A stretch of DNA of 27,161 nt from a virus. Every line of letters starts with the position of its first letter. Within the stretch, counting starts at the first letter, position 1. The translations under genes were made by a program, and so were the position numbers. The notes beneath the pieces are model-generated. The model worked only from the letters and a program-made list of their open reading frames with translations. It was not told where the DNA came from and did not search any database. Shown here one piece after another: positions 4,256 to 7,386 of this stretch. The stretch covers positions 1 to 27,161 of the IMG/VR virus record IMGVR_UViG_3300025860_000073. One strand, given 5' to 3'.

Positions 4256-5269
4256 ATGAGTAAGCAAAACGAAGAAGTAGAAGATAAAGCCCTAGATTTT
4301 GACGTAATGCCAGGAGCAGATCGTGTTGAAGACGACGATATGCCTAACTTGGACTTGAGTTTTGACACTGTTGCAGAGGAGCCAGAAGTAGTTGAAGAGC
4401 CAGCAGAAGTTATGGCAGAGGATGCAGAAGAGGAAGCCGCCACTGAAGATTCTGAAGAAGCCGTGGCCGAAGACGAAGGGGATGAACCCGAAGCAGAGCT
4501 CGACGAAGAATTAGAAGAGGAAGAGCCTGTAGCCGAAGAACCAAAAGCTAAGAAGAAGCCAATGGTGCCCAAGGCTAGACTTGATGAAGTCCTCGCCAAA
4601 CAGAAAGCTCTGCAAAAACAGCTTGATGAAATGAATGCAGCTAATGTCAAAGACGAAGAAGCGCCTGAGACCTACGATTTTGACGCAAAAGAAGTCGAAT
4701 ATCAGAATATGGTACTGGATGGTGAGTCGGCCAAAGCGGTTGCCCTGCGCAGAGAGATCAGAAAGGCGGAACGCGCCGAGCTAGAGTTCGAAATGCGCCA
4801 AGAAATGTCGCAGACAGTCAATCAAGACCGTCAGCAGACTGCCCTTCAGCAAGCGGCAAACGCTATGGAAGAGGCTTACCCTGTTTTTGATCGTAACTCG
4901 GATACTTTTAGCGAAGATATGACTAATGAAGTCGTTGAACTGCGCGATGCTTTCATGATGAAAGGGTATGAAGCTGTAGATGCGCTGTCGAAGGCTGTTC
5001 GATATGTTGTAAAAGACAACGATCTGGGCGAGTCCGGCCAAGAAGCACCCAGTTTGGCCGGAAAAGCTGCAAAAACAGACGAGCTGTCCAAAAAGAGAGC
5101 GGCTGTAAGCCGTAAATTGAAGGCTGCAGATGCTCAACCCCCTGAACTTCCTGGTGAAAGCTCATCGATGCATGGCGAGAAGGCTTTAGATGTAGCTTCC
5201 ATGACTGAAGAAGAGTTCAACGCCCTGCCTGAAGCCACTTTAAGACGTCTACGCGGCGATATTATTTAA
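4256..5269 (+). CDS. Capsid scaffolding protein
   Basis: The 337-aa protein shows the composition usual for phage scaffolds. It has an extremely acidic, low-complexity N-terminal third (about 41-95, mostly Glu, Asp, Ala and Val). This is followed by a short basic patch KAKKKPMVPKARLDE (about 97-111) and helical, coiled-coil-prone segments rich in Lys, Glu, Gln and Ala up to about 200. The C-terminal end is charged and helical. It lies between portal and major capsid, the standard scaffold position. The ATG at 4256 follows AGGAG (4245-4249) at a good distance. The stop overlaps the next start by one base. Sequence similarity between scaffolds is low, so the call rests on composition, length and position. 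Confidence 0.82.
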   Translation: MSKQNEEVEDKALDFDVMPGADRVEDDDMPNLDLSFDTVAEEPEVVEEPAEVMAEDAEEEAATEDSEEAVAEDEGDEPEAELDEELEEEEPVAEEPKAKKKPMVPKARLDEVLAKQKALQKQLDEMNAANVKDEEAPETYDFDAKEVEYQNMVLDGESAKAVALRREIRKAERAELEFEMRQEMSQTVNQDRQQTALQQAANAMEEAYPVFDRNSDTFSEDMTNEVVELRDAFMMKGYEAVDALSKAVRYVVKDNDLGESGQEAPSLAGKAAKTDELSKKRAAVSRKLKAADAQPPELPGESSSMHGEKALDVASMTEEEFNALPEATLRRLRGDII

Positions 5270-5442
5270 TGGCAACGGACTGCTGGGCATGTGGCGGCGA
5301 GCTTATATGGGGAGGTGACCATGACCTCGAGGAAGATGACTCCGAAGAGTTCTCCATTATCACGAATCTAAGCTGTCCGAATTGCAACGCCTTCGTTCAG
5401 GTCTACCACGGCCTGCGCGAGGGGTATACAGAAGAGGGATAA
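5269..5442 (+). CDS. Small zinc-ribbon protein (57 aa)
   Basis: ATG at 5269 overlaps the scaffold stop (TAATG), and the TAA is at 5440-5442. The product is 57 aa with two CxxC knuckles, CWAC at 5-8 and CPNC at 36-39, separated by an acidic segment (DHDLEEDDSEEF). This is a classic zinc-ribbon arrangement. Small zinc-ribbon proteins of this type occur in structural regions of environmental phages, but I know of no established function. The gene is coupled upstream and downstream (the next ATG is four bases after its stop), so it is probably co-expressed with scaffold and capsid. It is easily missed because of its size. Confidence 0.85.
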   Translation: MATDCWACGGELIWGGDHDLEEDDSEEFSIITNLSCPNCNAFVQVYHGLREGYTEEG

Positions 5443-5446
5443 AACT

Positions 5447-5737
5447 ATGGCAGTTAAAAAAGACCCACGATTAGCCCGAGCAGGAGTCTCCGGCTTTAAT
5501 AAGCCTAAACGAACGCCTAGCCACGCTAAAAAATCCCACATTGTTGTAGCAAAAGAGGGCTCTACAATCAAAACAATTCGTTTTGGTGAGCAGGGCGCGT
5601 CGACCGCTGGCCAACCCAAGGCTGGTGAGTCTGAAAAGATGAAGAAGAAGCGCGCGAGCTTCAAAGCACGACACGGAAAGAACATAGCTAAGGGAAAAAT
5701 GTCGGCGGCTTACTGGGCTGACAAAGTGAAGTGGTGA
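5447..5737 (+). CDS. Small basic protein, DUF6321-like
   Basis: The 96 aa are very basic. The N-terminal half is variable and rich in Lys, Arg, Pro and Ser (VKKDPRLARAGVSGFNKPKR). The C-terminal 35 residues match a pattern I remember as the conserved core of DUF6321 proteins, widespread in marine phages: KRASFKARHGKNIAKGKMSA followed by AYWADKVKW. The function is unknown. The basic charge and the position next to the capsid gene suggest a virion or DNA-associated protein, but that is inference. GAGG at 5434-5437 is a plausible ribosome binding site for the ATG. The DUF number is from memory and should be confirmed by a profile search. Confidence 0.85.
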   Translation: MAVKKDPRLARAGVSGFNKPKRTPSHAKKSHIVVAKEGSTIKTIRFGEQGASTAGQPKAGESEKMKKKRASFKARHGKNIAKGKMSAAYWADKVKW

Positions 5738-5937
5738 AACAGCTTGTTTTTGCCCTAATAGTGTCTGTGAGCGGAGATATAACGGATACAAAAAGCTATT
5801 GGGAGTCTTTAGAGCGGTGTCGGTGGTTTGCGCAGAAGTTAACTACCCAGGGCAGACCAGTGACGCATGCGACGCCAGTATTCGCGTACTGCGTCCCTGA
5901 GTATGTAGATAATGAAAAAACGACTATCCATCGATAG
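5734..5937 (+). CDS. Short conserved-type phage protein with hydrophobic N-terminus (67 aa)
   Basis: The start is probably GTG at 5734, overlapping the upstream stop by four bases (GTGA); another GTG lies one codon earlier at 5731. The first 15 residues (VKQLVFALIVSVSGD) are hydrophobic and could be a signal or membrane segment, though they are short. The rest contains RCRWFAQKLTTQG and a second cysteine in FAYCVPEYV near the end. The spacing of an RCxxFAxxL motif and a late YCVP motif resembles small unannotated proteins I associate with marine phages near the capsid gene. The two cysteines could pair if the protein is exported. The function is unknown. The gene closes the operon before the non-coding capsid leader. 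Confidence 0.7.
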   Translation: MKQLVFALIVSVSGDITDTKSYWESLERCRWFAQKLTTQGRPVTHATPVFAYCVPEYVDNEKTTIHR

Positions 5938-6193
5938 TGGTTGCATTATAATATTAGCTGTACTAATATTATGATACGTCTATCAGTACGATAACTGGTC
6001 GGCCCGTAGCCGTAAAAAACGTACCCCTTCGCCTGCACAGGCGTGAAACCTGCCGAGGGCGACCCTCGTTAATCAACGCTAAACGTTCTTCTACACGATA
6101 GTAGAAAAACGGATTAGCCGCTCCTTAAGTCGGCTTGTAAGGCGGCGTGTGCCGCACTAATTATTTGCCCATTTAATTATCAAGGAGCCAATC
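5938..6193 (+). promoter_or_regulatory. Structured non-coding 5' leader of the major capsid gene
   Basis: No ORF of useful size exists in these 256 bases, the largest non-coding stretch in the window. It can form a chain of stems:
- a palindrome at 5949-5971;
- GTACG (5986-5990) with CGTAC (6020-6024), enclosing CGGC/GCCG (6000-6012);
- CGCCT/AGGCG (6030-6043);
- CGAGGG/CCCTCG (6054-6068);
- a 10-bp stem with one mismatch at 6084-6111 (CGTT-C-TTCTAC with GTAGAA-A-AACG);
- AGCCG/CGGCT (6116-6135);
- GCGGC/GCCGC (6142-6155).
It ends in a strong ribosome binding site AAGGAG (6182-6187). A TATAAT box at 5947-5952 could place a promoter at its 5' end. This suggests a structured UTR or small RNA that adjusts capsid expression; no known RNA family was recognised. 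Confidence 0.6.
5949..5971. promoter_or_regulatory. Palindromic element copy 1 with TATAAT box, upstream of capsid gene
   Basis: TAATATTAG (5949-5957) and CTAATATTA (5963-5971) are a perfect 9-bp inverted repeat around a 5-base centre, and the symmetry extends imperfectly outward. TATAAT, a consensus -10 hexamer, lies at 5947-5952 and also reads on the opposite strand at 5950-5945. No convincing -35 box is seen 16-18 bases upstream. The core ATATTAGC-N4-CTAATAT (5951-5969) recurs at 20719-20737. It could be an operator overlapping a promoter, or an RNA hairpin. It lacks a T-run, so it is not a standard terminator. Confidence 0.55.
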
Positions 6194-7345
6194 ATGGCTG
6201 TAACAAATTTCGGTACGCTTACGGGCGACCAACTCCAAACTTGGAGCCGCGACTTCTGGAAAGTAGCTCGCAATCAATCTTTCATCAACCAATTTGCTGG
6301 TAGCGGTTCAAACGCTATGGTTCAGCGCGTAACTGAGTTGACCAAGAACAACAAAGGCACTAAAGCTAACATCACTTTGCTAGCTGACATGACCGGCGAC
6401 GGTATCACTGGTGATTTTACTCTGGAAGGCAACGAAGAAGCCCTCCGCGCGTATGACATCAGCATCGAGCTAGACCAGTTACGTTTCGCTAACCGCATCG
6501 CTGGCCGTATGACTGACCAGAAGACTGTTGTTAACTTCCGTGAGCAATCTCGTGACGCACTTGCTTATGCAATCGCGGATCGTTGTGACCAGTTGGCATT
6601 CTTGACTTTGTCAGGTGTTGCTTACACTCACAAGAACAACGGTGGCCTTCGTACTGTAGTTGGCGGCGCTGTAAACGGACAAGAGCTTGTTGATCTTGAG
6701 TTTGCTTCTGACGTTTCTGCACCTACTGCTTCACGACACCGTCGTGTTGATGGCGACAACATCGTTGCTGGTGACACTACTGCTTTGGTAGCTGGTGACA
6801 AACTCAAGTACAAGCACATCGTTAACTTGAAAGCCTATGCTAAAGATCAATACATCCGTGGTATTCGTGGTGCTGGTAACCAGGAAACTTATCACATGTT
6901 TGTTACTCCATCACAGATGGCTAACTTGAAGCTAGATGCTGACTTCATCGCTAACGTTCGTAACGCTGGTGTACGTGGTGCTTCTAACAGCTTGTTCGCT
7001 GGTTCTTCTAGCCTGATGGTTGACGGTGTAATGATCCACGAGTTCCGCCATGTGTTTAACACTTCTGGCGCTACTACTGGCGCTTCTGGTAACGCTGGTG
7101 CAGCTGGCTACAAGTGGGGCGCAGACGCTTCTATTGTTGGCGGTCGTGCTTTGTTCTGTGGTGCTCAGGCTCTAGCTCTAGCTGACATCGGACTACCTGA
7201 AATGGTTGAAGATACTTTCGACTATGGCAACCAGTCTGGTATTTCTGTCGGTAAGATCTTCGGATTCCGTAAGCCTAAGTACAACAGTGATATCACTGGT
7301 GACGTACAGGACTTCGGCGTTATCTGCTTAGATACTGCACAGTAA
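6194..7345 (+). CDS. Major capsid protein, N4 gp56-like (DUF4043 / Phage_capsid_3 type)
   Basis: This is the shell-forming protein of the icosahedral head. The 383-aa length and the motifs fit the N4 gp56-like capsid family: an N-terminal SRDFWKVARNQSFINQFAGS (about 19-38) preceding MVQRVTELTK, then GNEEALRAYDISIELDQLRF (about 78-97) and a following NRIAGRMTDQKTVVNFREQS. A helical stretch REQSRDALAYAIADRCDQLAF and a C-terminal KYNSDITGDVQDFGVI are also present. Cleavage is not apparent. The ATG has the best ribosome binding site in the window (AAGGAG, seven bases upstream). The gene sits between a long structured leader and a strong terminator, so it is probably a separately tuned, highly expressed unit. 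The order after portal and scaffold supports the call. Confidence 0.93.
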   Translation: MAVTNFGTLTGDQLQTWSRDFWKVARNQSFINQFAGSGSNAMVQRVTELTKNNKGTKANITLLADMTGDGITGDFTLEGNEEALRAYDISIELDQLRFANRIAGRMTDQKTVVNFREQSRDALAYAIADRCDQLAFLTLSGVAYTHKNNGGLRTVVGGAVNGQELVDLEFASDVSAPTASRHRRVDGDNIVAGDTTALVAGDKLKYKHIVNLKAYAKDQYIRGIRGAGNQETYHMFVTPSQMANLKLDADFIANVRNAGVRGASNSLFAGSSSLMVDGVMIHEFRHVFNTSGATTGASGNAGAAGYKWGADASIVGGRALFCGAQALALADIGLPEMVEDTFDYGNQSGISVGKIFGFRKPKYNSDITGDVQDFGVICLDTAQ

Positions 7346-7356
7346 GTAAGACAATC

Positions 7357-7386
7357 GCCCCCTTCTTCGGGAGGGGGCTTTCTTTT
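7357..7386 (+). terminator. Rho-independent terminator after the capsid gene
   Basis: A 9-bp G+C-rich stem, GCCCCCTTC (7357-7365) with GGAGGGGGC (7370-7378), contains one G-T wobble. It closes on a TTCG loop with a C-G closing pair (the stable UUCG tetraloop type), and TTTCTTTT follows at 7379-7386. It lies 12 bases after the capsid stop. The next gene starts 15 bases further on, so some read-through or a promoter elsewhere must supply the downstream genes. Confidence 0.93.

Follow-up and report, generated by a model that had tools for sequence, protein, structure and literature searches.

In RNA phages, translational feedback by the capsid protein is well established, and in phage T7 the gene 10 cassette combines transcription by T7's own polymerase with a short simple stem and a leaky terminator. 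Structured leaders that control a Shine-Dalgarno (SD) sequence and belong to genes for abundant nucleic-acid-related proteins are exemplified by the ribosomal-protein autoregulatory leaders and the leader of T4 gene 32, which is also pseudoknotted, and phage transcripts that open with small hairpins by HK022 put and lambda nut/boxB. By genomic role, the nearest catalogued RNA to the leader described here is Mu-gpT-DE (RF03012), which we take to be a candidate structured RNA tied to gpT, the major head gene in Mu-like phages; our locus differs in that its capsid protein is of the N4-gp56 type. PMC7657543 mentions RF03012 by name alone (Mu-gpT-DE).

Our locus lies in a viral sequence of 27,161 nt, hereafter the window (the whole stretch of DNA that was analysed), in which a gap at 5938-6193 is flanked by a 68-aa open reading frame (ORF; 5731-5937) and the gene for the major capsid protein (MCP). 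Within the gap no ORF reaches 60 aa, a tRNA scan found no tRNA, and the MCP is identified by profile matches to PHROG 334 (E = 1.2e-80), PF13252 (E = 2.3e-45) and TIGR04387 (above cut-off). The arrangement resembles the T7 phi10-gene 10 cassette, with its own promoter, a folded 5' end, a strong SD, the major capsid gene and a terminator behind. Unlike that cassette, as it is generally known, the window has a sigma-70-like promoter, a long conserved fold, a pseudoknot and an SD that is predicted to be buried. The ribosomal-protein and gene 32 leaders differ from it in their genes and folds, the protein ligand in the window being only putative, and the Rfam ribosomal leader families gave no match to it; put and nut differ in that the element in the window abuts and matches the MCP SD, in a terminator context that differs between clades.

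A conserved promoter and the leader that follows it

The 5' edge of conservation upstream of the MCP gene is a promoter, not the stop codon of the preceding gene (Table 1). T5942, T5964, A5965, T5967 and T5969 are shared by 112/112 leaders, T5941 and G5943 by 111/112, and the consensus across clade 1 (the clade of the window) is TTGC(A/T)T - 17 bp - TAATAT. A standard promoter scan missed this element because TTGCAT and TAATAT score under its cut-off, and it was found through conservation instead. Leaders of the sister clade (clade 2) have a consensus promoter (at least 9/12) upstream in 23/57 cases, against 3.7% of shuffles. From promoter geometry, the transcript is predicted to start at about 5976, at helix P1. 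The preliminary description had taken all 256 bases for a leader; the gap is indeed non-coding, but its first ~38 bases are promoter, and the transcribed part, which would reach the MCP start codon, is predicted to be ~218 nt long. A palindrome (ATATTAG-N5-CTAATAT, 5950-5970) that overlaps the -10 box is frequent, not universal, in clade 1 and could serve a regulator of the MCP promoter as its operator.

Table 1. Features of the MCP locus in the window (all on the + strand)
Feature	Position	Strand	Basis
Sigma-70-like promoter: -35 TTGCAT 5941-5946, 17-bp spacer, -10 TAATAT 5964-5969	5941-5969	+	conservation
P1, closes three-way junction with P2 and P3	5975-5979 with 6019-6023	+	alignment
P2 hairpin, hexaloop ACGAUA	5982-5999	+	covariation
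P3 hairpin, loop CCGUA	6000-6012	+	covariation
P4 hairpin, CGCCT/AGGCG (6030-6034 with 6039-6043)	6030-6043	+	alignment
PK1 pseudoknot, P4-loop GCA 6035-6037 with UGC 6051-6053	6035-6053	+	alignment
P5 hairpin, CGAGG/CCUCG, loop NCGNN	6054-6068	+	alignment, sister-clade comparison
P6, outer GCUA/UAGC (6078-6081 with 6115-6118) and CGU/ACG (6084-6086 with 6109-6111)	6078-6118	+	alignment
P7 hairpin, AGCCG-[CUCCUUAAGU]-CGGCU	6116-6135	+	invariant in 55/55
Putative anti-SD GCUCCUU, in P7 loop	6120-6126	+	predicted pairing with SD
P8 hairpin, GCGGC/GCCGC, optional	6142-6155	+	doubly changed pairs; absent in L209
SD of MCP, AAGGAGC (AAGGAG 6182-6187)	6182-6188	+	sequence
MCP, N4-gp56 family, 383 aa	6194-7345	+	profile matches
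Intrinsic terminator, directly 3' of MCP	7357-7378	+	strong; conserved in clade 1

The leader is a conserved structured RNA

The decisive evidence is comparative and confirms that the leader is a conserved structured RNA. In a plain MAFFT alignment of 55 sequences made without structure (A1), 94.8% of the cells pair, 18/40 pairs show double-sided changes and 226 cells are doubly changed (71.5 in shuffles); when the structures are shifted by 1-3 columns, pairing falls to 28-39%. Covariation was scored on 102 distinct rows (G-test with average-product correction) against a null in which the substitutions on a FastTree tree were replayed on random columns. The three top pairs, in P2 and P3, lie above every null value, the next three (P6, P3) correspond to 0.1-0.5 expected null pairs each, and each of the six is a Watson-Crick pair that belongs to a predicted helix. 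Over 112 distinct homologous leaders, P2, P3, P4, P5 and P6 are maintained via compensatory changes. Folding energy points the same way: 5938-6193 has z = -4.5 (0/200 dinucleotide shuffles as good), a value inflated by the AT-rich palindrome (~5947-5972) inside the promoter, and the predicted transcript 5976-6196 has z = -2.9 (3/200 as good). Covariation, conservation and a folding energy better than that of shuffled sequence, the three things whose absence was to count against the structure, are thus all present.

Helix by helix, the strongest covariation of the leader is that of P2, where 5985-5996 and 5986-5995 exceed every tree-based null and 5/6 pairs are doubly changed. In P3, 6002-6010 is likewise above every null and 6003-6009 is doubly changed too (GC/UA/CG and CG/GC). 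P5 is 100% paired, with doubly changed pairs at 3/5 positions, and in P6 all 4/4 pairs of the inner hairpin (loop ACGAUA) are doubly changed and the outer pairs are kept in 100% of the sequences. P4 is 99.6% paired (one doubly changed pair), and PK1 is 91.5% paired, its 6035-6053 pair being GC 31, AU 15 and GU 8 times, with GCU/AGC in one leader (L096). The least certain helix is P1, in which 84.6% of cells are paired and one pair is doubly changed (TACGT/ACGTA to TTCGT/ACGAA); RNAalifold offers an alternative to it, pairing CGU 5977-5979 with ACG 6109-6111.

On P7, covariation is silent because the hairpin does not vary, and part of this invariance comes from selection, since the conserved 3' part of the leader that was used for the pattern scan (see below) chose for the P7 region; the pattern is present in 199/207 sequences then gathered, most MCP-selected loci included. 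P7 and outer P6, both invariant, share 6116-6118, an overlap that, as read from the sequence, would make them mutually exclusive and the pair of them the best candidate for a switch.

The stems named in the preliminary description are found where it drew them: a 10-bp stem with one C.A mismatch at 6084-6111 (loop ACGAUA), CGAGGG/CCCTCG at 6054-6068, and AGGCG at 6039-6043, which pairs upstream with CGCCT at 6030-6034. Of its proposal that some pairings exclude each other, the complementarity of CAGG (6038-6041) and CCTG (6049-6052) is real, but covariation favours the pseudoknot of GCA 6035-6037 with TGC 6051-6053, for which the alternative pairing was dropped.

The leader is fixed upstream of one gene family

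The leader stands directly upstream of a single gene family, that of N4-gp56-type MCPs. Among the best 80 of 419 viral-contig matches to the MCP protein query, its intergenic length is nearly constant (mostly 248-327 nt), and at clade-1 loci the leader stays when the gene directly 5' of it differs. A DNA pattern made from the conserved 3' part of the leader occurs in at least 119 contigs, and wherever the sequence reaches far enough 3' for a test, a relative of the MCP (identity down to 58%) starts 45-64 nt 3' of the motif. A covariance model (R1) matches nearly all loci from a third query, whose MCP is ~69% identical to that of the window. Twelve clade-1 contigs of 34-59 kb have a single copy of the leader each. 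Its carriers are related marine and freshwater phages; a search of bacterial genome contigs gave a single match, on a 7.5-kb contig of a metagenome-assembled genome (MAG), and no MCP relative was found among them.

At the same place in the sister clade, two distant homologues (L292/L289) are recovered by the clade-1 model (E = 7.6e-5 and 4e-4), which has no match in KPP25, phiA008, AP1, MW202615, KLEP18-1 or LASTA. KPP25 retains a promoter, and in phiA008 and AP1 short pieces like the sister-clade CCU..AAAAGUC block are too little to claim a leader remnant. Two of these genomes show other arrangements. In Klebsiella phage LASTA (L087), a gene annotated as a CsrA-like regulator (2648-2857) lies directly 5' of the distant MCP homologue and would be a possible protein-based alternative for MCP control there. 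In Paracoccus phage KLEP18-1 (L086), the upstream gene and the MCP gene are separated by an inserted HNH endonuclease gene (2208-2786) that lies on the other strand.

Rfam 15 covariance models gave no match at the gathering threshold and none up to E = 5 (Mu-gpT-DE included), and no description of the leader was found in the literature searched, a scope outside which lay most subscription journals and a 2017 survey of 224 candidate RNAs. We rate the leader as a new RNA family within a known kind, that of cis-regulatory leaders.

As for the neighbours, the gene at 4256-5269, between portal and MCP, is scaffold-like by position, and a 57-aa ORF between it and the MCP gene (5269-5442; CWACGG...CPNC) encodes a zinc-ribbon-like small protein. 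This ORF was rejected as the regulator, as was the 68-aa ORF next to the gap: they occur in 4/80 and 16/80 clade-1 loci, respectively, and in none of the clade-2 loci. Downstream, 56 bases separate the MCP gene from the next ORF (7402), and since they contain no obvious promoter, the virion genes that follow probably rely on read-through of the terminator.

Predicted pairing of the Shine-Dalgarno sequence

The folding model predicts that the leader hides the MCP SD by pairing it with an upstream anti-SD, a conclusion that is supported but not proven. In the window, the modelled pairing probability is 0.99-1.0 for the five core pairs (6184-6188/6120-6124) and 0.82 and 0.29 for the outer two. 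In clade 1, the same model pairs CUCC with the SD at P > 0.5 in 36/56 non-redundant leaders and at less than 0.1 in 9/56; in a few leaders (L115, L118) the SD is weaker and a poor fit to CUCC. The SD is less exposed than when the sequence upstream of it is shuffled, in clade 1 (unpaired 0.15 vs 0.27, p = 4e-8, 56 leaders) and in clade 2 (0.19 vs 0.29, p = 6e-4).

A swap test, in which near-duplicates were removed but tree and relatedness were otherwise left uncorrected, asked each SD to choose between its own leader and others. In clade 2, the SD fits the leader it comes with better than foreign ones (p = 2e-4), and the two strands show matched changes (such as CCUCCUAA/UUAGGAGG, ACCUCGU/ACGAGGU and CGCCUCUCU/AGAGAGGCG). 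In clade 1, there is no significant match (p = 0.39), and at the pair flanking CUCC:SD the association is weak (TA 57 and AT 21 vs TT 16 and AA 11); both the swap test and SD covariation are weak there because CUCC and SD are nearly invariant. Pairing of the SD to an upstream anti-SD is thus indicated in clade 2 by the swap test and by predicted folding, and in clade 1 by predicted folding and invariance only.

The sister clade and its repeated loops

A common plan underlies the leaders of 57 non-redundant KPP25-side phages. They have a promoter and a 5' hairpin whose loop is NCGANA; next there is often a hairpin with a CCUCC-type 3' strand and AAAAGUCG behind it, and then a second NCGANA hairpin, which in many leaders is enclosed by a long helix. 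As a rule, the putative anti-SD lies on the 3' strand of the P5-like hairpin or else in the linker that precedes the 3' hairpin. In six leaders (L220-L223, L234 and L266), the P5-like hairpin repeats the SD sequence on its 5' strand (GGAG); this strand and the SD would then be rivals for one and the same CCUCC.

In both clades, the leaders contain CGANA-core hairpins at a density of 4.1-4.4 per kb, which is ~35-fold that in the rest of the same loci (0.12 per kb). In clade 1, CG is invariant at loop positions 2-3 of P2, P3, P5 and P6, and the loops of P2 and P6 are NCGANA. The presence of several copies of one loop per leader suggests recognition by a protein. A resemblance of UACGAUA to the tRNA T-loop was also considered.

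Competing explanations

The explanation we favour, and hold to be fairly probable, is a structured 5' UTR that acts in cis, is made from its own promoter and sequesters the MCP SD. The next one, unlikely but deserving attention, is a leader that boosts expression and stabilises the mRNA, like that of T7 gene 10, its fold protecting the 5' end or aiding ribosome loading without response to a ligand. The layout in clade 1 fits, from own promoter, folded 5' end and strong SD to MCP and terminator (7357-7378), which is found in 47/48 clade-1 loci. Yet it is missing in clade 2 (1/70 loci have a terminator directly after the MCP gene), which argues against a T7-type cassette; a stabiliser would need neither invariant loops nor a pseudoknot nor ~160 nt of conserved sequence, and it leaves unexplained why the predicted exposure of the SD is lower than in shuffled leaders and why, in clade 2, SD and anti-SD match. 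The same difference between clades weighs on an antitermination element (put-like or nut/boxB-like), whose hairpins would load a factor onto RNA polymerase for read-through past the post-MCP terminator into the virion genes. That the RNA is predicted to begin at the promoter and carries at least two small hairpins with conserved loops, and that in clade 1 a strong terminator follows the MCP gene with no obvious promoter in the next 56 bases, agrees with such a role. The sister clade, however, has related hairpins with no terminator directly after the MCP gene, the SD matching is left unexplained, and the distance from the start codon, constant at 45-64 nt, suggests translation; we regard antitermination as quite improbable.

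A trans-acting RNA, i.e. a small RNA released from the MCP message by processing (the preliminary description had also suggested a processed small RNA) or a packaging/scaffold RNA, would suit a compact, conserved element with invariant loops. It is very unlikely, since the element is never away from the MCP gene in the collections searched, extends into the MCP SD and has no terminator at its 3' end. The combination of junction, pseudoknot and SD-sequestering end recalls riboswitch anatomy, but a metabolite sensor would here be confined to a capsid gene, lacking from bacterial genomes except one MAG contig and without a match to any Rfam riboswitch, and we give it hardly any credence. Any 256-base gap allows some stems, and chance hairpins in an ordinary intergenic gap could be invoked on that ground; covariation, conservation and folding energy refute this, and we set it aside with near certainty. 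What stands of the preliminary description is therefore its other two suggestions: a new RNA family of phage capsid leaders, borne out by compensatory changes in the helices, linkage to the MCP and the blank Rfam search, and a structured UTR controlling capsid translation, which compensatory changes, MCP linkage, the predicted burial of the SD and anti-SD variation in clade 2 support, the control itself being inferred.

Proposed mechanism and outlook

By computation, the leader RNA begins beside its own promoter and forms the three-way junction P1-P3, the P4/PK1 hairpin-plus-pseudoknot and hairpins P5-P7. In the sequestration reading, as the nascent leader folds, the anti-SD would cover the MCP SD, and it could be diverted by alternative pairing (outer P6 vs P7 in the window, P5 vs SD in the sister clade). 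The repeated hairpin loops may be recognised by a protein that, once bound, locks or opens the SD, and MCP output would then follow the demand for shells. Since the SD appears hidden, the leader probably controls the amount of shell protein, at the level of translation. Candidate ligands are the MCP (autogenous control, which is a guess) and the 4256-5269 protein. Unlike the genes immediately 5' of the leader, which vary, these two recur in both clades, and this makes the MCP the most economical candidate.

A bolder version, tentative and in our view rather doubtful, is that these leaders are widespread autogenous capsid-control RNAs of N4-gp56-type podophages: free MCP would bind the array of NCG(A)N(A) hairpins cooperatively and lock the SD, and assembly would drain MCP and thereby reopen translation. 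If true, this would be translational feedback by a capsid protein as in RNA phages, but with an HK97-fold capsid and in a DNA phage.

Phages of this kind make more MCP than any other product, and its amount has to keep step with scaffold, portal and genome copies. If the control is real in these marine, freshwater and Pseudomonas-associated lineages, capsid dosage control in tailed DNA phages would become directly testable. The leader would (i) supply RNA catalogues, from which it is missing, with a family that has a clear host gene, a pseudoknot and a repeated loop motif and (ii) give annotators a marker of the true MCP start and promoter.
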